Shown here one piece after another: positions 24,091 through 34,343 of a stretch of DNA of 38,016 bases; position 1 is the first letter of the stretch; each line of letters starts with the position of its first letter. The stretch spans positions 1 to 38,016 of the forward strand of contig CALRDJ010000005.1 of assembly GCA_943354875.1 (NCBI GenBank), read 5' to 3'. Source of the stretch: Candidatus Levybacteria bacterium GW2011_GWA1_37_16. GTDB taxonomy: Bacteria > Patescibacteriota > Microgenomatia > Levybacterales > UBA12049. The position numbers were made by a program, and so were the translations under genes. The notes beneath the pieces were generated by a model. The model searched no databases. It saw only the letters and a program-made list of their open reading frames with translations, and had not been told where the DNA came from.

Positions 24091-25251
24091 TTATTTCCAC
24101 TTTCTAAGCATAGCAGTTTTAATAAACCAACTTCCAGTCAAGATTATGGATAAAACTATGCCACCAATCATTATCTGATTGAGAGTCTGTGGAATCGGAG
24201 TATCCCAGTTTCCGACATATAAAAATGGCAGGTACTGTAATAGTGCTGCAATTGATAACACTACTGCGGAGATACTGATAAAATATTTTTTTGACAGGAG
24301 AGCTGCAAAGGGCAAAGCATAGAGCAAGTACCACGGCTGAAATGTAGTTCTCTGTGTCGCTACGAGTACTGCCCCAACCATAAGAAGTAATCCCGCACCA
24401 TACGCCATGTGTACGTTTTTTCTCAGTAGAAGAAATACAGGTAGTAAAAGTCCTGTCGCAAATTTCACTCCGACTGACAAGCCAAGCAACACCACACTTC
24501 CTGCGTATTTCTTATCTAAGAACCATACCATCGCCATAAGCACCAATGCCATCATCACGATATCATTATGAGCAGATACCAAACTCTCTACGAGAACTAA
24601 TGGATTAAACGCGAAAAACCCCAAGACGAACAGCTCATTCCCTACTGTTTTTTTCGCCAAGCGATATATGGCATAACATGCGAGTAAAAAGCTAGCGGAC
24701 ATAAGGAGCTTAAATAAAATAAGTGTAGGGAGTAAGAGCTTAAAACCTAAAAATGAGAGTGGCACAGTGAATAGCAACCATACAGGACCATACGGATAGG
24801 TACGATGTGTCCAATGCATGAATGACAACATAGGATCTCCTGGAAAGTCGAGTGCCTTATGGTCATAAGGATTTTGACTATAGTAGGTAATTATCTTCGC
24901 ATCAAATATATAATTAAATAGATCGTAAGAAAACGCATTATAGGAAAACGTGAGAATTACCGTGGTCAAAACAATTAAAACCCAGACCAATCCTTCTGAG
25001 ATCTTTTTATTTTTTACCATCCACAAGATAGTGAGATAAAAAATAAACAAAACACTCACTATTCCTACAAATAAATATGCAGATAATGGCCGATCGAAAT
25101 ATCCTATGTGCTGGAAAAACTTCTGAATTCCCTGCCAGACAGAAACTCTCGACAAAGTGAGAGACAAATCGACTTGAGTAAATGAATAGAAAAGAAGAAG
25201 AAGAACCGAGAGAATATATCCTGCGCTAAAAAGTTTTAGACCAAATTTCAT
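24091..25251 (-). CDS. Multi-pass membrane GT-C/GT87-like mannosyltransferase
   Basis: ORF; SYDLFNYIFDAKIITYYSQNPYD, YPYGPVWLLFTVPLS, FNPLVLVESLVSAHNDIVMMALVLMA. Confidence 0.65.
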   Translation of the reverse strand: MKFGLKLFSAGYILSVLLLLFYSFTQVDLSLTLSRVSVWQGIQKFFQHIGYFDRPLSAYLFVGIVSVLFIFYLTILWMVKNKKISEGLVWVLIVLTTVILTFSYNAFSYDLFNYIFDAKIITYYSQNPYDHKALDFPGDPMLSFMHWTHRTYPYGPVWLLFTVPLSFLGFKLLLPTLILFKLLMSASFLLACYAIYRLAKKTVGNELFVLGFFAFNPLVLVESLVSAHNDIVMMALVLMAMVWFLDKKYAGSVVLLGLSVGVKFATGLLLPVFLLLRKNVHMAYGAGLLLMVGAVLVATQRTTFQPWYLLYALPFAALLSKKYFISISAVVLSIAALLQYLPFLYVGNWDTPIPQTLNQIMIGGIVLSIILTGSWFIKTAMLRKWK

Positions 25252-26090: not shown

Positions 26091-26166
26091 GGCCCCATCG
26101 TCTAGTGGCCTAGGACATCAGATTCTCATTCTGAGAACCGGGATTCGAATTCCCGTGGGGTCACCA
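26091..26166 (+). tRNA. tRNA-Glu (anticodon CTC)
   Basis: Cloverleaf folded by hand: acceptor GGCCCCA/TGGGGTC, anticodon stem-loop TCAGA-TTCTCAT-TCTGA with CTC, T-arm CCGGGATTCGAATTCCCG; CCA at 26164-26166. Confidence 0.93.
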
Positions 26167-27637
26167 AAGTTGTTTCATCGCCTGAAAAATCCCTAATTAG
26201 GTTGAAAGGAAGGCCTAAAGTAGCGGTTCCAAAGTTTTCGTTAGATACAGGAAGACCGTTTGGAAACATCAACGATTGGAAACGTTGTTTATTATCAAAA
26301 GACGCTTCAAACCAAACAGAAGAAACATTCTCAAGCAAGCTCTCTGCAAGACTTACAATGTGATCCATATTTGCTTCTATTGACCTAAGCTCAGTTCGCT
26401 CCAGTTCTTGCATAGCTAACTGGTCGCTGAAGGCCTCTACTTGCTCTTTGTATTCCTTATCACTTACTGTTCCCTGAAGGTTCTTAACTAACAATCGCTT
26501 CTTTAGTTCTTTAAGGTTAAAAATTTCAGTATCTATCTCATCTATTGCTTTCTTTTCTTCAGCATGTTTTCTTTTCCATATATCAACTAGTAGTAATTTG
26601 AATATCTTATTAAACTCTTTATTTGGCTGGATATACTTGAGATAATCATAAAATTTATTTTCAAATACCTCTTTTGATACCCTCACGGCACCACAAATGC
26701 AATGATAATATGAATACTTTTTACTTCTTCCAGTAGAACTACTTGCGGTAATATTTCTTGCACATTTTAGACATTTAAGGATATTTTTTAGTGGGAAATT
26801 ATGGTTGTTAGTTGAATGAGAAACAGATGCCTGAACAGACCTTCCAAGCCTAATTGATTCTACCTTATAAAAAAGATCATTGCTGATTAGGGGTTTATGT
26901 ATACCCAGATGGGTTTCGCCCCAAGCTTGGCATATTCCTATATAAAGCTTGTTGCTAAACATTTTGATCAAAAATTGAGAGGTAATTTTCTTACCATTGC
27001 CTGTTCTTAAGCCCAATCTATTTATTTTATTTACAACAAACTTTATTGTATAGCCACCATTTGCATAAATTTCAAATGCCTTTTTAATAAATTGCGCACT
27101 ATTTGCATCTACAATTAATCCAATTGGGGAGTTTTTGTAACCCAAGGGGGCTTTCCATGGCCATTGTCCCTGTCTTAGTTTTTCGAGCATTCCTGCTTTT
27201 GTTCTTTCAGATCTTGTATCATTATCAAATTGAGCTGCTGCTGAAAAAATGGACTCCATAAATTTCCCTCCGGGTGTATCGTCAACTAGCTCTGTTGCCG
27301 AACGAACCTTAACTCCCAATTTAAGCAAGATTGCCTTAACAGTGTGATGATCTGCAGATGAACGAGAAAACCTGTCAAATTTATAGACAAGTAGCACATC
27401 TACCAAGCCCTTATTTTTTCTACAATATTCAATTAACTTGATGAGTTCAGTTCTATTCGCAGTTTTAGCAGATTCTCCCTCTTCTTTAAAAACTTCTATG
27501 ACCTCCCATTCTTGCCTTTGCGCATACTCTCTACACGCCTTTTCTTGTGAACTAAGTGAGAAATTTTCTACCTGTTCTTTTGTAGAGACTCGTGTGTAAA
27601 GGATTGCTTTCATGGTTTTTATCTGTTCTATTTCCAT
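26126..27637 (-). CDS. Large serine recombinase / site-specific integrase (resolvase + recombinase + zinc beta-ribbon)
   Basis: ORF; AILYTRVSTKEQ, VLLVYKFDRFSRSSADHHTVKAILLKLGVKVRSATE, GKFMESIFSAAAQFDNDTRSERTKAGM, ILKCLKCARNITAS...YYHCICGA, C-terminal coiled coil. Confidence 0.95.
   Translation of the reverse strand: MEIEQIKTMKAILYTRVSTKEQVENFSLSSQEKACREYAQRQEWEVIEVFKEEGESAKTANRTELIKLIEYCRKNKGLVDVLLVYKFDRFSRSSADHHTVKAILLKLGVKVRSATELVDDTPGGKFMESIFSAAAQFDNDTRSERTKAGMLEKLRQGQWPWKAPLGYKNSPIGLIVDANSAQFIKKAFEIYANGGYTIKFVVNKINRLGLRTGNGKKITSQFLIKMFSNKLYIGICQAWGETHLGIHKPLISNDLFYKVESIRLGRSVQASVSHSTNNHNFPLKNILKCLKCARNITASSSTGRSKKYSYYHCICGAVRVSKEVFENKFYDYLKYIQPNKEFNKIFKLLLVDIWKRKHAEEKKAIDEIDTEIFNLKELKKRLLVKNLQGTVSDKEYKEQVEAFSDQLAMQELERTELRSIEANMDHIVSLAESLLENVSSVWFEASFDNKQRFQSLMFPNGLPVSNENFGTATLGLPFNLIRDFSGDETTLVTPREFESRFSE
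26151..26164 (+). repeat. Left att core direct repeat (within tRNA-Glu)
   Basis: tcccgtggggtcac, identical to 34330-34343. Confidence 0.85.
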
Positions 27638-27677
27638 TGTGTGCCTTTCATTTTATCGAGTCAATAACCCCAAGTTG

Positions 27678-27815
27678 TTATTTGGAACCATTTTCTGCAG
27701 CCTCAAGCATAAGTTCTGCTAGATGCTCCAACTGATTAAGTATCTCCTGTACTTGGTGGTCGGAATAATCCTTAGATTTTTTACCTAATATTTTCCTAAC
27801 TTCTATGATAGTCAT
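27678..27815 (-). CDS. Small hypothetical protein, 45 aa (not in the ORF track)
   Basis: Hand translation: MTIIEVRKILGKKSKDYSDHQVQEILNQLEHLAELMLEAAENGSK*; start 27815, stop 27678-27680. Confidence 0.6.
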   Translation of the reverse strand: MTIIEVRKILGKKSKDYSDHQVQEILNQLEHLAELMLEAAENGSK

Positions 27816-27869
27816 AAAAAAAATCAGCATCCGGTTGGGGAACAAGATGCTGATCACTTTCCCCCAACC
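27816..27869 (-). ncRNA. Predicted H-type pseudoknot followed by poly-T (regulatory RNA or terminator)
   Basis: Minus strand: GGTTGGGG-GAAAGTGA-TCAGCATC-TTGTT-CCCCAACC-G-GATGCTGA-TTTTTTTT; two perfect 8-bp interleaved stems (one extendable to 9 bp) then T8. Confidence 0.6.
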
Positions 27870-27883
27870 TATTTTCCTACTAA

Positions 27884-27951
27884 AAAAGGACTACAAATCT
27901 CTAGAATAAAACTCAAAATATCGAGTTATCTAGACGGTTTGCAGTCCTTTT
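27884..27951. repeat. Long interrupted inverted repeat / hairpin
   Basis: AAAAGGACTaCAAA/TTTGcAGTCCTTTT (13 of 14 paired) enclosing TCTAGA/TCTAGA and AACTC/GAGTT with loop aaaatatc. Confidence 0.8.
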
Positions 27952-28027
27952 AAGGAGTTAGCTTCGTCGTTGAAGTCGGTACTAGGTAAAGTTTAGAGGA
28001 TAAAAGAACAGGAAGGCAAGATGGAGA

Positions 28028-28240
28028 TTAAAGTAGGTCTTTAGCCTGTATTTTTAATGCTTTTGCAATTTTTTCTAGCACTTCAAGTGAAGGAGCGTAT
28101 CTACCTTGTTCAATAAATCCCATGTAGGCCCGGCTAATTCCTACCTTCTCAGCAAGCTCTTCTTGCGTATAGCTTAGCTGCTTTCTTTGCTTCTGAATCT
28201 TATCTCCAATTACTCTTGGCAATCGTGCATTACTTCTCAT
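28028..28240 (-). CDS. XRE-family HTH transcriptional regulator
   Basis: 70-aa ORF; IGDKIQKQRKQLSYTQEELAEKVGISRAYMGFIEQGRYAPSLEVLEKIAKAL. Confidence 0.93.
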   Translation of the reverse strand: MRSNARLPRVIGDKIQKQRKQLSYTQEELAEKVGISRAYMGFIEQGRYAPSLEVLEKIAKALKIQAKDLL

Positions 28241-28275
28241 GGCTTAATTATTGAGGTTAACTGAGGCAAACTAAA

Positions 28276-28338
28276 CTAAGCTACGCTTAGCACTTAGCCT
28301 TGTTTCAAGCTTGTATTTCTGCTAAGCTAGAGTTAGCA
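28276..28338. promoter_or_regulatory. Paired operator-like palindromes in the divergent region beside the XRE gene
   Basis: CTAAGCTACGCTTAGCA (28276-28292) and CTAAGCTAGAGTTAGCA (28322-28338), 14 of 17 identical, each a dyad. Confidence 0.6.
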
Positions 28339-28355
28339 ATATACAATAAATAACT

Positions 28356-28883
28356 ATGAATATTTTTCAACGTCTGACTATTTATTTCCGAAACCAATAT
28401 CTTGACTGGCAAAGAGCTTATTCAATTGATGATTTACCGAAAAAGCTAGACGATTTAGATATATATAATGAGTTACCAAAATGGCTTGTTGATGAATTAG
28501 AAGCAATTATTAAGGTTTATAAACCGAAAAATAAAAAGAAACTTTATTTAATCAAGTTTGATAAGAAATTTACTACTGATCAAGCTGAGCGTGAACTAAG
28601 CCTACTTGGTCTTTTACCAGCGAATATTGTAGAAATAGTCTTATTTGTTAATAAGTATTCAAAAACAGTAAATGAGAGACCTATTATTGCATTGAATTCT
28701 TACCATGACTACTCAAAAGCGTTTAAAGAGATACTGAAAACCTACAGCCGTCCTCCTAAATATGACCTATGTGTTTGCTACACTTCCTTAGGATTTGAAC
28801 GACCAGGAGAAATAGAATCATGCGAAGCAATGAATGGAGCAGTATTTAGTATTGGAACAACATTTATTGCTAAATCTTTTTAA
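28356..28883 (+). CDS. Hypothetical protein
   Basis: 175-aa ORF, divergent from the XRE gene, no family recognised. Confidence 0.7.
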   Translation: MNIFQRLTIYFRNQYLDWQRAYSIDDLPKKLDDLDIYNELPKWLVDELEAIIKVYKPKNKKKLYLIKFDKKFTTDQAERELSLLGLLPANIVEIVLFVNKYSKTVNERPIIALNSYHDYSKAFKEILKTYSRPPKYDLCVCYTSLGFERPGEIESCEAMNGAVFSIGTTFIAKSF

Positions 28884-28884
28884 A

Positions 28885-29217
28885 ATGAGAACAGCATTTA
28901 TTATCATTTTGAGCGTATGTTGCATTGTTGTTTCGGTTTCTATTGCTTACTATTTTATATTATTTCTTCCCCAACAACAGCGTGTTAATACAGCCACGCT
29001 TAAAAAAATTGAGCAGCAAGCAATAAAAACTAAAGAAAATACCGAAAACATACCATCAACTAGTACAACAAGTATAGAAAACCGATTAGATGACATAAAT
29101 AACTCAATAGAACAACAAAATGCAGATATGGAATATGAGCAAAAAAGAAGAGGCTGGTGTGAACAAGGCGGTGGAATATATTATGGGAATGGTTCTTGTA
29201 TAACCTCACAAAAATAA
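28885..29217 (+). CDS. Hypothetical protein with single N-terminal TM segment
   Basis: ATG at 28885; MRTAFIIILSVCCIVVSVSIAYYFILFLPQQQR then Gln/Asn-rich coiled coil. Confidence 0.65.
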   Translation: MRTAFIIILSVCCIVVSVSIAYYFILFLPQQQRVNTATLKKIEQQAIKTKENTENIPSTSTTSIENRLDDINNSIEQQNADMEYEQKRRGWCEQGGGIYYGNGSCITSQK

Positions 29218-29271
29218 GAACTTTTATCTAAAAAGCAGAATTTGAAATCGTTGAAGGAGTATAATTAAACT

Positions 29272-29928
29272 ATGATACATAAACAAACTCAACTTACACT
29301 TTACCTTATACGTCATGCGGAATCGGAAATGAACCAAAATCCTCATTTAATTGGAGGAAGAAGTCCACGCACTCCTCTTTCTCCTCTTGGAATAGAACAA
29401 GCTATGAAATTAGGTAAGTATTTTCATAAGCATGATATTACATTCAATGCAATTTATTCATCCACTGCGGTAAGAGCGATTGGAACAGCAAGACTGGTAC
29501 TTAAAGAATTTAATGTACCGGAAGACAATGTCACTACCACAGATCAACTCGTTGAGATTGGTCAGGGAGATTGGGAAGGAAAACTCAGAACAGAAACTTA
29601 TACACCAGATACCTTGAGCTACATGAATACAAAAGGTCCGATATTCACTCCCCCAAATGGCGAGTCTCAATTAATGTGCGAACATAGAGTATCTAGTTGG
29701 TTTATTGAAGAAATACTCAATAATAAAAAATATATGGGTAAAGAAACCACAATTGCAATTTTTTCTCACGGTATAACAATAAAGTGTTTGCTTCATTTTG
29801 TAATGCATTTTAACGATAGGCTAATTTATCGAATAACACTCGATAATACCAGCATGTGTAGGCTAAGGCTTACTCCTGATGGATGGTTTATTGACAGTAT
29901 TAACGATACGTCACACTTAGGCCAATAA
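29272..29928 (+). CDS. Histidine phosphatase family protein (phosphoglycerate mutase-like)
   Basis: ORF; LYLIRHAESEMNQNP, IYSSTAVRAIGTARLV, LVEIGQGDWEGK, IAIFSHGITIKCLL. Confidence 0.92.
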   Translation: MIHKQTQLTLYLIRHAESEMNQNPHLIGGRSPRTPLSPLGIEQAMKLGKYFHKHDITFNAIYSSTAVRAIGTARLVLKEFNVPEDNVTTTDQLVEIGQGDWEGKLRTETYTPDTLSYMNTKGPIFTPPNGESQLMCEHRVSSWFIEEILNNKKYMGKETTIAIFSHGITIKCLLHFVMHFNDRLIYRITLDNTSMCRLRLTPDGWFIDSINDTSHLGQ

Positions 29929-29982
29929 ATCCCAATTTCACTTAAATAAATTTTGGGTAAGTTTAGTATTTTAGCCTCGTTT

Positions 29983-30011
29983 TTGACAAACCATCGCTAA
30001 ACTGATACTAT
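29983..30011 (+). promoter_or_regulatory. Putative promoter of the leader preceding the 30113 ORF
   Basis: TTGACA (29983-29988), 17-bp spacer, TACTAT (30006-30011). Confidence 0.55.
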
Positions 30012-30050
30012 ATAAATAGCTTTAGCGTCCTAATTTAACGAAGGAGTCCA

Positions 30051-30116
30051 TTGCAGCTACCATTCTGGAGCTGTATTTTTTTGGCTTCAGACGGTTACAA
30101 AACCGAAAGGAGGTGA
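30051..30116 (+). CDS. Candidate leader peptide ORF (21 aa, TTG start)
   Basis: AAGGAG at 30041-30046, then TTG CAG CTA ... AGG AGG TGA = MQLPFWSCIFLASDGYKTERR*; the stop overlaps the next gene's Shine-Dalgarno. Confidence 0.35.
   Translation: MQLPFWSCIFLASDGYKTERR
30052..30082 (+). terminator. Putative intrinsic terminator/attenuator in the 5' leader
   Basis: TGCAGCT ... AGCTGTA stem with inner CC/GG, followed by T7 (30076-30082), located between promoter and CDS. Confidence 0.45.
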
Positions 30117-30121
30117 AAAAT

Positions 30122-30472
30122 ATGGAAACAAAACTAAGGTGCCACTTAATAGAGGGTACCCCTACAGAGTCTGATTTATCTCCTAGTGACGCACACTTCG
30201 ATGTTATAAAAACATTTGAAGAAGATAGCCATTTATCCAGACGTATTCTCAAATGTAAGAGATGCGGACAGCTGTACTTCTATGAGTTTTATGAAGAGAT
30301 TGATTGGAAAGAAGGAAACGATTCTCAATACTGCACATACATTCCAATCGAAACAGTAGAAGAAGCGGAAGAGTTGAATAAAAAATCTCAATTTGCACTG
30401 CTCGGCGTAGTCCCAAGACTACAAGACGACTTCTTACAAGACGGTACAAAAACAATCGAGTGGATGAGGTAA
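30122..30472 (+). CDS. Hypothetical protein with one Cx2C motif
   Basis: ATG at 30122 with AAGGAGGTG upstream; METKLRCHLIEG...LKCKRCGQLYFYEFYEEIDWKEGNDSQYCTYIP. Confidence 0.75.
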   Translation: METKLRCHLIEGTPTESDLSPSDAHFDVIKTFEEDSHLSRRILKCKRCGQLYFYEFYEEIDWKEGNDSQYCTYIPIETVEEAEELNKKSQFALLGVVPRLQDDFLQDGTKTIEWMR

Positions 30473-30527
30473 AATGAGAGATAGATTGATTAAGAGTATG
30501 CTATAGTAGTGGAAAGGTTTTGCCTAT

Positions 30528-30713
30528 ATGAAAGCGAACAACTTACCACTTAAGAATACTAAGCATTCACCAAAGACGGATCTGTCCAGTCAGGACGAAG
30601 ATTTCATACACAATTTGAACGTGGGAATGCCCTCATCGGAGAGGAGAGGTCAGATATTAGTGGAAAATCTCAATCGAAACCTACTCAAGAAACAGCCCCC
30701 ACAAGAGAAGTAG
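30528..30713 (+). CDS. Hypothetical small protein (uncertain)
   Basis: 61-aa ORF MKANNLPLKNTKHSPKTDLSS...; another frame stays open to 30799. Confidence 0.3.
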   Translation: MKANNLPLKNTKHSPKTDLSSQDEDFIHNLNVGMPSSERRGQILVENLNRNLLKKQPPQEK

Positions 30714-30795
30714 TCCCCGATTTCCAAATAAACGACTTCACGCCTAAAAAGGAGGCTCAACGGGTTATTAAAAAAATGATTATGTTTATGAAATT

Positions 30796-31122
30796 TTAGA
30801 CAGAAGATTCGACCATGCCTTTAAATCTTTGTTTTCTATACTTTAAATTAAAACACGTTCTGCATCCAATTATTTCTACTACTGGGTGCCTATAAAGTGC
30901 TCCAACCCTTTTCTTGCAATTTGGACACGCAAACCAGAACCTCTCACCATTGAATTTTGTTTTGGATGTGGTTAGGTTAACCACGACTCCTAGCACCTCA
31001 ATCTGGGCTTGTAGAAGCCTTCTCTTAAGCTCTTTTTGGGCTTTGCTTATCAAATCATCTACCTTGATCTTTTCAAAGTTTTCCACGACTAAAAAACTTC
31101 CTAAATCATATGGGTTTAACAT
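30796..31122 (-). CDS. Zinc-ribbon hypothetical protein
   Basis: ORF; FACPNCKKRVGALYRHPVVEIIGCRTCFNLKYRKQRF (CxxC...CxxC). Confidence 0.75.
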   Translation of the reverse strand: MLNPYDLGSFLVVENFEKIKVDDLISKAQKELKRRLLQAQIEVLGVVVNLTTSKTKFNGERFWFACPNCKKRVGALYRHPVVEIIGCRTCFNLKYRKQRFKGMVESSV

Positions 31123-31684
31123 TTTTATTATCCTGTATAAGTTGGTTCTGTCCTACAATCGTTGTGTTAGTTCTGATGTTAACATTTAGAGAAGGTTGCT
31201 TTAACATTCTCAATGTATGCAAGCCAGATAAGTATTGTCTACTTGCTCGATCTAGCTCTTTGCTTAGGGTAGCAAAAAATAAAATATCTGTTTTACTCAT
31301 CTGATCGTTTATATAATTATTTATCCTTCTTTGAAGTTCTAGAATTCGAACGAAATATAGGGTAACAAGCTCAGTAGTCGCTTTCTCGCTTGGAAGCGTA
31401 CAATTATACTCTTCTTGTAATTGTCGCATAAAGTCTATTGCGAAAGTCCTATATTGCTCAGGCACAATCGTGTACATGAGTGCTCCATTTTCAAATTCAA
31501 CAAGGGTCATTGCTCTAAAAAAATTACTTTTTACATCAACAGCCTTCCTACCATTGTTTCCATTACTAAATTCCTTATCAATCTCTCTCAATACATGATC
31601 GGGGTCAATTTCTAACTTATTTTTCTTTAGATGCTCACGGATCTCGACTGGTGTTTTTATTGAGGTTATAGAATTTTTACTCAT
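31106..31684 (-). CDS. Hypothetical helix-rich protein
   Basis: 192-aa ORF, 17-bp overlap with the downstream Zn-ribbon gene. Confidence 0.7.
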   Translation of the reverse strand: MSKNSITSIKTPVEIREHLKKNKLEIDPDHVLREIDKEFSNGNNGRKAVDVKSNFFRAMTLVEFENGALMYTIVPEQYRTFAIDFMRQLQEEYNCTLPSEKATTELVTLYFVRILELQRRINNYINDQMSKTDILFFATLSKELDRASRQYLSGLHTLRMLKQPSLNVNIRTNTTIVGQNQLIQDNKNVKPI

Positions 31685-31695
31685 AATAACCAGAA

Positions 31696-32670
31696 TTACA
31701 GCTCTATTTTCAAAGTTACTATTTCATTTATTCCTATTGCCTCAGATAGCCTAGAGAAGATGATTCGCATTTCGTCAGGAATAACCCTAGCATATCCACC
31801 TGTATTTAAGAAGAAATAAACCCTATCATATTGAACCATGTTTTTATCCCCGTCTCGTTTTCTAAGTAACTGCTTAATAGCGTCTTTTGAACTGTTAATA
31901 TAGCGAGAATAAACTGAACTTAAATCAAGAAACGCGTCTTTTGCCGTATTGAACATAGTTACTCCTCCTCCATACATAAATAAAAATCCAATATTACCCC
32001 TTTTTACATCGATTTTAAAGGTGAATCTATCTATTGTTTGTATGTGGTGCTTTATATCGTTTGTTTTTATTAATGGTCCAAGATCAACAATCAATTGATC
32101 CGTTGCGTGTTTCATCCTTTTATAAAAATCTTTTACGCTTGAGAAGTCAGATAATATGTAGTCGCATTGTATGTATATATTTTTCTGAAAAGACTCATCA
32201 ACAATACTTTGGACATGAAATTTATTATGCAAAATACTAAATCCAGGATCTATGTCATCTAGTTTTTTAACTTCTGCAAATCGCTTTATTCCATCTTCGG
32301 TATATTCGATATCAGGGTTTCCCTCTCCTGATATAAAGCTAATATCATTCATACCTTCTTCTTTTAAGAGCTTAGCAACATTGAGTTCTGCAATTACAGA
32401 AAGATATTCTATATCAAAGTTTGTTTTTAATCTGGATAAGGGCTCTTTAATATTTGTAAAATTTCTTTCTGCTATGAAATTTTCCAGTCCAGAAAGATTG
32501 GGCGAGTCTATTGCAGCATATCTTAAAAGTGGAATTTCAAGTAACTCCATAAAACTCTTACTACTTTCAACTTGGTTAATTACAACTTCTCTAAAATGCT
32601 CCTCAATTAAAGGATACTTTTTTAGATTTTTTGTTGCATTTTCCAATAGTTGTTTTTTATCTGTTGTCAT
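31696..32670 (-). CDS. Putative PD-(D/E)XK nuclease-like protein
   Basis: ATG start at 32670; VIAELNVAKLLKEEGMNDISFISGEGNPDIEYTEDGIKRFAEVKKL matches an E...PD...ExK arrangement. Confidence 0.6.
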   Translation of the reverse strand: MTTDKKQLLENATKNLKKYPLIEEHFREVVINQVESSKSFMELLEIPLLRYAAIDSPNLSGLENFIAERNFTNIKEPLSRLKTNFDIEYLSVIAELNVAKLLKEEGMNDISFISGEGNPDIEYTEDGIKRFAEVKKLDDIDPGFSILHNKFHVQSIVDESFQKNIYIQCDYILSDFSSVKDFYKRMKHATDQLIVDLGPLIKTNDIKHHIQTIDRFTFKIDVKRGNIGFLFMYGGGVTMFNTAKDAFLDLSSVYSRYINSSKDAIKQLLRKRDGDKNMVQYDRVYFFLNTGGYARVIPDEMRIIFSRLSEAIGINEIVTLKIEL

Positions 32671-32675
32671 TATTC

Positions 32676-33122
32676 TCAAGCGTTGCTTTCTATGCTTTTT
32701 TTATAATCTTCTAATCCACCAACCTCTTCTCCTGTAAAAAGAAGCATGCGAAGCATCACTTTGCTTTTTACTAAGGGTGATTCCACCATGGCCCGATAAA
32801 TTCCAATAGCCCTATGAATACCATCAGTAATTACAATGGGAGAAGCGTCATTTTTTCTCATACCAAAAACTGTCGTGTCTGTATAGTAATTTTCGAGGAT
32901 TGTTTTTTTGCAAAGATTTATCTTTTTTATCTTCTCATCTTTATGGTGATCAGGAATGTTCTCGTCCTTTAAAAAATCTTTTATATTTTTACCTGTCTGC
33001 CACATAACATATATCGCTCCTAAATTATCTAAATTAACAATGCCGTACACAGGCATAGCACCAGCTCCAGCCATTAAATATAAAGCTCCAGTCGCATTAT
33101 TATCTATTTCTTTAAGATCCAT
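32676..33122 (-). CDS. ParB/sulfiredoxin-like protein (DGxHR motif)
   Basis: ATG start MDLKEIDNNATG at 33122; SPIVITDGIHRAIGIYRAM resembles the ParB/Srx core motif. Confidence 0.45.
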   Translation of the reverse strand: MDLKEIDNNATGALYLMAGAGAMPVYGIVNLDNLGAIYVMWQTGKNIKDFLKDENIPDHHKDEKIKKINLCKKTILENYYTDTTVFGMRKNDASPIVITDGIHRAIGIYRAMVESPLVKSKVMLRMLLFTGEEVGGLEDYKKSIESNA

Positions 33123-33123
33123 A

Positions 33124-33825
33124 TTAAGAGGGTTTTGATAGAAACGTATAAAACTTGCAAATAACTTCAGCGCCAACTTTTAAAATTTTTGTGTTATCTT
33201 TACCTGAGACATCTTGATACTTACCATGCCTAACAACATCAGCAAAAGTTTTAGCAAAATCTACGTCCTCTCTTTTTATACTTAGCTTCTGACGTATTCC
33301 CTCCCATTCAAGAGTCTCATTTTTTAAATCAGTTGGATAAAAATGCTTTTTAATATTTTCTATGGCAAGATATACAAAAAGCCCCGTATATGCAGTGTAA
33401 CGCCTAGCATTTTTGAAATTGCTTAACGCAAGCCTAAGGCTCATATGTTCAATCGCAGCACCCATAAATATTTCCATCTGGGGCAATTCTTCTATCTGCA
33501 AGTCTCCTAAGAGCTCTTCTAAGCTTGCCTCGCTATATTTTTCCTCACTATCATCATGTTTAACCATTTCTAGCCTTACTTCGTAAATCTCGCCTGTTAT
33601 GAACGAGTAGGCGTCTACAAGCCCTTGTATCGTTTGCTCTGCAGATTTTAGAGCAGTCCCCGCGTTTTCAATATGATCAGCGACAAGTGTAGCGGTAATT
33701 ATCGATTTTTGTATTTCAAAACCGAAAGTTCCCAGTTTTGATGGGTTGGCGCTAGGTACGACTGGATAACTAACTTTTTTAGGGAAAAAGGGCAACACTC
33801 TTCCAAGAAATATATACTGCTTCAT
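33124..33825 (-). CDS. Hypothetical protein
   Basis: 233-aa ORF, first gene of the minus-strand operon; extended -10 TGaTATAAT just upstream. Confidence 0.7.
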   Translation of the reverse strand: MKQYIFLGRVLPFFPKKVSYPVVPSANPSKLGTFGFEIQKSIITATLVADHIENAGTALKSAEQTIQGLVDAYSFITGEIYEVRLEMVKHDDSEEKYSEASLEELLGDLQIEELPQMEIFMGAAIEHMSLRLALSNFKNARRYTAYTGLFVYLAIENIKKHFYPTDLKNETLEWEGIRQKLSIKREDVDFAKTFADVVRHGKYQDVSGKDNTKILKVGAEVICKFYTFLSKPS

Positions 33826-33834
33826 TGCAGCGTA

Positions 33835-33843
33835 ATTATATCA
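33835..33843 (-). promoter_or_regulatory. Extended -10 promoter element of the 5-gene minus-strand operon
   Basis: Minus strand TGATATAAT ending at 33835; ATG at 33825. Confidence 0.45.
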
Positions 33844-33883
33844 TCGATTCTAGTATCCCATGGTAGTATAAATTTGTGGCAAA

Positions 33884-33962
33884 CTAGGCTCAGGATTTAG
33901 GATTGGTTTCCATTGCTCAAGGGAGGCACGAATCTGGTTCCAATTCGAAAACATTTGGGTCA
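33884..33962. repeat. 79-bp imperfect repeat, copy A (possible degenerate tRNA-like sequence)
   Basis: Ungapped match to 35074-35152, 56 of 79 identical by hand count. Confidence 0.55.
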
Positions 33963-33984
33963 CTTCGGCAAGCTCAGTGCAAGC
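33963..33984 (+). repeat. Imperfect inverted repeat, left arm, flanking the GIY-YIG gene
   Basis: cttcggcaagctcagtgcaagc; its reverse complement matches 34255-34276 at 17 of 22. Confidence 0.65.
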
Positions 33985-33990
33985 ACTTCT

Positions 33991-34302
33991 ATGGACAGAA
34001 GGTTACCATGGTTTGTCTACATGCTTCTTTGCGATCAGAAAACGTTTTATATCGGCATTTCTGATGACCTCAAAAACAGGCTCTCTCAACATAAAAACAA
34101 ACAAAACATCTCAACTAAAAAGTTTTCTGATCTTAGACTTATTTATGCTGAGCGATACTTGAATAAGCTTGATGCGACCAAGCGAGAAAAACAGCTAAAA
34201 GGTTGGTCGCATACAAAGAAGCAGATGCTTATTGACGGAAAACTTGGTATAAATGCTTGTACTGAGTTGGCGAAAGAGCTCGTTCGAGAGTTAGAACTTT
34301 GA
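33991..34302 (+). CDS. GIY-YIG endonuclease domain protein
   Basis: Likely start ATG at 33991 (MDRRLPWFVYMLLCDQKTFYIGISDDLKNRLSQHKN...RLIYAERYLNKLDATKREKQLKGWS). Confidence 0.9.
   Translation: MDRRLPWFVYMLLCDQKTFYIGISDDLKNRLSQHKNKQNISTKKFSDLRLIYAERYLNKLDATKREKQLKGWSHTKKQMLIDGKLGINACTELAKELVRELEL
34255..34276 (+). repeat. Imperfect inverted repeat, right arm, within the GIY-YIG 3' end
   Basis: gcttgtactgagttggcgaaag. Confidence 0.65.
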
Positions 34303-34329
34303 GTTTACTTCGAGCTAGCCGAGAAGAAG

Positions 34330-34343
34330 TCCCGTGGGGTCAC
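34330..34343 (+). repeat. Right att core direct repeat
   Basis: tcccgtggggtcac, identical to 26151-26164 in tRNA-Glu. Confidence 0.85.

Follow-up and report, generated by a model that had tools for sequence, protein, structure and literature searches.

Discussion of how the large serine integrases are controlled usually centres on repressors and directionality factors, and RNA structure in front of small genes is represented by the type III toxin-antitoxin RNA ToxI, in which a pseudoknot RNA and a terminator lie directly before a small gene. Pseudoknotted leaders also occur among riboswitches. The transcriptional preQ1-I riboswitch of B. subtilis places an H-type pseudoknot aptamer in the 5' leader and acts through termination of the downstream gene (PMC11625349), and the SAM-II riboswitch is an H-type pseudoknot leader for which termination yielding a short RNA has been proposed (PMC9373788). 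In the open-access literature searched, no paper dealt with pseudoknots in the leaders of serine recombinases.

The window examined here is a stretch of 38,016 nucleotides from a Levybacteria-family (Patescibacteria) genome. On its minus strand, at positions 27816-27869, two interleaved helices (S1 and S2) head the operon of a small ORF and a serine integrase, part of an element of ~8.2 kb located at tRNA-Glu. By its predicted structure, the locus would share with preQ1-I an H-type pseudoknot in the 5' leader coupled to intrinsic termination, with SAM-II the H-type pseudoknot leader and with ToxI a pseudoknot RNA and terminator immediately 5' of a small gene. It differs from preQ1-I in that the riboswitch combines a small ligand aptamer with a separate terminator hairpin, whereas in the window S2 itself would be the terminator stem, and in the lack of a conserved aptamer sequence and of an Rfam match; the SAM-II sequence is likewise missing. 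Both riboswitch knots are ligand-binding aptamers, whereas the window knot is a predicted structure. By analogy, the window leader may be seen as a variant of the pseudoknot attenuators, a kind already known from the preQ1-I and SAM-II riboswitches.

Identity with described families was examined through Rfam. Gathering scores over the window gave no match at the knot, a permissive search of 27600-28100 gave no riboswitch there, and Rfam over the relatives gave no family for it. The preQ1-I, preQ1-II and SAM-II riboswitches were rejected as identities because no Rfam aptamer matches at the knot. SAM-II scored 16.6 bits, below its gathering score of 44, at 28052-28087, inside the XRE gene and away from the knot. 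A type III toxin-antitoxin RNA was also rejected, as the sequence read for the leader has a single knot, with no tandem repeats, and the next gene encodes a two-helix protein of 45 aa and not an endoribonuclease.

Anatomy of the leader and its operon

Read directly from the sequence, the minus-strand order is GGTTGGGG(7)ATCAGCATC(5)CCCCAACC(1)GATGCTGAT-T7-ATG, that is, two perfect interleaved helices of 8 and 9 bp. All of the following parts lie on the minus strand. S1 joins the 5' arm GGTTGGGG (27869-27862), taken from the sequence and from the ABAB scans, to the 3' arm CCCCAACC (27840-27833); shifting a G gives an alternative drawing of 10 bp. S2 joins the 5' arm ATCAGCATC (27854-27846) to GATGCTGAT (27831-27823), which is the 3' arm of the putative terminator stem. 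The loops are GAAAGTG (7 nt, 27861-27855), TTGTT (5 nt, 27845-27841) and a single G between the two 3' arms (27832). Past the S2 stem there is a tract of 7 T (27822-27816), flush on the ATG of the small ORF at 27815. The original prediction had described two perfect 8-bp helices in ABAB order ending in T8; the interleaving, the perfection of the helices and the abutment of the tract on the ATG stand, whereas the second helix is corrected to 9 bp and the tract to T7, one T belonging to S2.

The window copy has the ABAB helix order of an H-type pseudoknot, with an unusual loop 3 of 1 nt. S2 (9 bp) is followed directly by T7, the G+C-containing stem-loop and T tract by which an intrinsic (Rho-independent) terminator is recognized; it is absent from the list of a simple terminator scanner because its 14-nt loop exceeds the limit of 3-8 nt used by the scanner. 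A long interrupted hairpin with T6 (H1; 27882-27951, minus strand, from sequence and fold) lies ~12 nt upstream of the knot and is possibly the first terminator of a tandem pair. Such a tandem arrangement may belong to the design, since a terminator-like hairpin also directly precedes the knot of the related locus G373 (L136).

The 45-aa small ORF (27678-27815, minus strand) belongs to a family of two-helix proteins encoded ahead of serine recombinases (alignment A1). It is followed by the gene for a large serine recombinase with Resolvase and Recombinase domains (26126-27637, minus strand; Pfam PF00239 and PF07508), the 3' end of which overlaps tRNA-Glu (26091-26166, from tRNA prediction). 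An 18-bp repeat (direct repeat D7, plus strand) forms the left attachment repeat within the 3' end of tRNA-Glu (26147-26164) and the right one at 34326-34343, identical in 17 of the 18 positions, and this one-mismatch copy of the tRNA end therefore indicates an element of ~8.2 kb integrated at tRNA-Glu. The element (26147-34343) also encodes an XRE regulator and several proteins without a Pfam family.

The small-protein family is conserved, with R7 and D19 invariant in alignment A1; among 385 genomes of the class, 55 encode a member. At the loci examined closely the small ORF precedes a serine recombinase. The protein is modelled with high confidence as two helices (mean pLDDT 93), for which a fold search gave no significant structural match, and it belongs to no Pfam or PHROG family.

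Chance expectation and recurrence at homologous loci

Perfect 8+8 ABAB sites occur in first-order Markov random windows at ~0.1 per strand under loose loop limits. An explicit ABAB search of the window found the knot site on both strands, as expected of any ABAB site, and one further 8+8 site, AT-rich and within coding sequence at 25062. Interleaved 8-mers alone are uncommon, not extraordinary or impossible, and the earlier statement that they are hard to explain by chance is too strong for the bare 8-mers; it holds once G+C-rich stems and short loops are combined with a T tract and an abutting ATG, and this context is what lends the site its significance.

As a background, 412,624 bases of the same genome were scanned blind on both strands with a strict energy threshold. 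The scan retained 14 sites, an ATG lying within 14 nt in 3 of them. Only the window and contig C40 combine the ATG with a T tract, and each of these two sites heads a serine-recombinase operon; the third ATG-adjacent site, on C10, has no T tract. The formal T5 count of the scan script was reached by the window alone, because the C40 T tract lies partly inside the drawn stem.

The same build, with unrelated stems, is found before the homologous small ORF in other genomes (G373, G068 and G037) and on contig C40 of the same genome; these leaders and that of the window are here termed class 2. The G373 leader comprises TCAACTGTGG, AATCTCGGC, CCGCAGTTGA and GCCGAGATT-T6-ATG; the G068 leader, GCTGGGCG, AGCCTTCAAT, CGCCCAGC and ATTGAGGGCT-TTTTTGTTT-ATG; the G037 leader, TTTGTGGCTA, GCCTTATT, TAGCCACAAA and AGTAAGGC-ATTTTTT-ATG; and the C40 leader, TCGGGTGCAG, ACTCCTG, CTGCACCCGA and CGGGAGT-TTTTATTTGACT-ATG. 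The measured identities between the recombinases at these loci and the window recombinase are 25-33%. The end of the S2 3' arm lies 3-9 nt from the ATG in the relatives, and most examples have a loop 3 of 0-2 nt, in which they depart from ordinary H-type pseudoknots. No sequence conservation was found among the class 2 copies, and single-protein scans of viral and genome contigs found no close homologues of the window copy, the small-protein alignment being too variable to serve for a contig scan.

In a strict position-locked test the knot was found at 5 of 89 loci, the control rates being 1 in 10,300 for shuffles and 2 in 1,122 for control ORFs (Fisher p 4e-5). Because the set was seeded with the window, and G037 was included only once its knot had been noticed, the unbiased count is 3 of ~86. 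This test was used instead of a loose one (8/89 vs 2.9% of shuffles), which was discarded as too weak. About 84 of the 89 small-ORF loci are without a strict knot, some having other leaders or none. Terminator-like hairpins with a T tract near the ATG precede 8 of 89 small ORFs and 22 of 1,562 controls (p 1e-4), the former count including G037 and G083, both added after being seen. In a named-genome scan of recombinase upstream regions, enrichment was confined to strong energies: 7 of 77 reached an energy of -40 or below compared with 3 of 420 controls, and there was no enrichment at -25. Thresholds were picked in the course of the analysis; the controls (shuffles, other ORFs and own-genome scan) agree in direction.

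These results bear on the possibility that the feature is an ordinary terminator or insulator of the upstream unit and that S1 is complementary to its loop by chance, which we consider very improbable. H1 with its T6 ~12 nt upstream would suit such a function, as would the rate of ~0.1 chance interleaved 8-mers per strand and window; however, interleaved helices are found again at the homologous site of other genomes and on C40, and an insulator would normally leave space for a promoter before the ATG.

Other leaders are also seen before the small ORF. A third type (L111, L113, L117, L128 and L138) shares the conserved sequence CGCATCT..AAGTTGGTAACTTCTTATACAGGTAAGGTGAACGAG and has hairpins that covary, which in some copies pair across the start codon. 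Scanning four of these loci (L111, L117, L128 and L138) against Rfam gave no match. The known sRNA family LOOT (RF03000) occurs in divergent orientation upstream of the small ORF at L131:1184-1300 (minus strand) and L136:2330-2433 (plus strand).

The presence of LOOT RNA near two related loci, together with a stable 3' knot and a U tract of the kind that suits an sRNA, would fit a free small RNA acting in trans (antisense, antitoxin-like or guide-like), with the knot as its 3' end and the T tract as its normal end. Such an RNA is hardly to be expected here, given the lack of sequence conservation among class 2 copies, the absence of tandem repeats and of a toxin gene, and a position fixed relative to the operon ATG.

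Folding and mode of action

Taken alone, the S1 hairpin is predicted at -14.0 and the S2 hairpin at -11.0 kcal/mol; among the nested folds of the 60-nt leader, an S1-type hairpin is optimal. In a lenient model of rigid A-form helices (sterics, linker limits, linker threading ignored) S1 and S2 can coexist with the loops of the window, while in G068, where loops 2 and 3 have zero length, the helices coexist only if 1-2 bp are trimmed. The model cannot separate a pseudoknot from two alternating hairpins, and a steric argument for mutual exclusion of S1 and S2 was dropped because the model allows both.

A search just upstream of the knot found no promoter-like site. The T tract and the ATG leave no room between them for a start signal or a promoter, and the small ORF and the integrase would therefore depend on read-through, whether past a knot or past alternating hairpins. 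We infer transcription of the minus strand, with termination and regulation at the knot. On balance, and with modest confidence, the feature is probably the leader of the small ORF and serine integrase operon, acting in cis as an attenuator in the form of a pseudoknotted intrinsic terminator that would limit read-through into both genes. According to this mechanism, the S1 hairpin would be the first to form as RNA polymerase advances, and the S2 3' arm would pair with the S2 5' arm within the S1 loop, directly behind the polymerase. S2 and the U tract would halt the polymerase just before the AUG, and the integrase would be kept low until something blocks S2.

The chief rival to the pseudoknot attenuator is a bistable switch without a true pseudoknot, in which S1 and S2 would be mutually exclusive hairpins, S1 serving as antiterminator and S2 terminating once an upstream RNA or a trans factor takes the S1 5' arm. 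This arrangement is rather unlikely, although it deserves serious consideration: S1 is more stable than S2 (-14.0 vs -11.0 kcal/mol), would form earlier and dominates the nested optimum, and the zero-length loops 2 and 3 of G068 require trimming for coexistence, whereas for the window both helices are permitted by the rigid-helix model. When the 5' end is extended, folding predicts that the S1 5' arm pairs with an upstream region (CUUCAAC near 27970) and that S2 forms, which lends weak support to the switch; however, the upstream pairing includes G-U pairs, was predicted from one sequence and may be due to chance.

A sequence-conserved sister class

A scan of 90 recombinase upstream regions revealed a sequence-conserved interleaved RNA (class 1) with the layout P1a-P1b-TTTTTTAATGGCCGTnTTGGACA-P1b'-P1a'-CCnG..CGGCCATTTAAGTT. 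In alignment A3 (14 sequences) the two interleaved helices, P1a and P2, covary, with 96.3% of cells paired and 15 of 22 pairs changed on both sides; none of 500 shuffles was as good, and slid controls gave 32-47%. Of 148 related genomes, 44 carry the RNA according to the covariance model R1, with 64 copies in total. Most of these precede serine recombinases; examples are L023:1405-1505, L025:1408-1505, L080:434-530 and L083:309-410 and, in the genome of the window, C49:4512-4617, which is among the strongest sites of the blind scan. Most copies have a TATAnT box a few bases before them, a spacing consistent with an RNA that would start at P1a. Orphan copies were observed ~300 nt upstream of RecA-like (L365) and RuvC-like (L372) ORFs, with no recombinase in the stretch read. 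Class 1 RNA matches no Rfam family and, being widespread and strongly covarying, is therefore a candidate new RNA family.

Class 1 and the window leader are alike in having interleaved helices in front of serine recombinases. They differ in that class 1 has a conserved TTTTTTAATGGCCGT..TTGGACA, a long P1 and mostly no T tract, and the window gave no match to model R1 up to E 10. The covariation of class 1 thus marks interleaved-helix leaders as a selected feature of these recombinase operons, although it is no proof for the window copy. Judged by comparative sequence evidence, leaders of this kind are real. The proposal of a riboregulator, attenuator or pseudoknot terminator made in the original prediction is the best supported, as the topology recurs with unrelated stems and class 1 covaries, and is sustained only in part, the window copy having no close homologues.

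The P2 3' arm of several class 1 leaders ends ~8 nt before the recombinase ATG, without a T tract, and a gap of 7-9 nt separates the S2 3' arm from the ATG at several class 2 loci. Both spacings would fit a translational operator, in which the S2 stem, 7-9 nt before the AUG of the read-through RNA, would hide the ribosome site and termination would be secondary. For the window this is improbable: S2 runs straight into a T tract, as is characteristic of intrinsic terminators, and the S2 arm contains no Shine-Dalgarno sequence.

That distantly related elements have comparable knots, built from other sequences, in this position suggests that RNA folding may control DNA integration in these bacteria. 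A broader and speculative proposal, which we put forward as possible but doubtful, is that the integrative elements of Patescibacteria have an undescribed layer of RNA control, in which the class 1 (conserved) and class 2 (fast-evolving, including the window) leaders would be co-transcriptional switches of serine integrases, perhaps sensing the integrated or excised state via the length of the upstream transcript. If true, a recurring RNA attenuator directly ahead of the integrase operon would mean that integrase control has an RNA layer as well, in bacteria that rank among the least accessible, and it would be a source of compact pseudoknot terminators amenable to in vitro tests.
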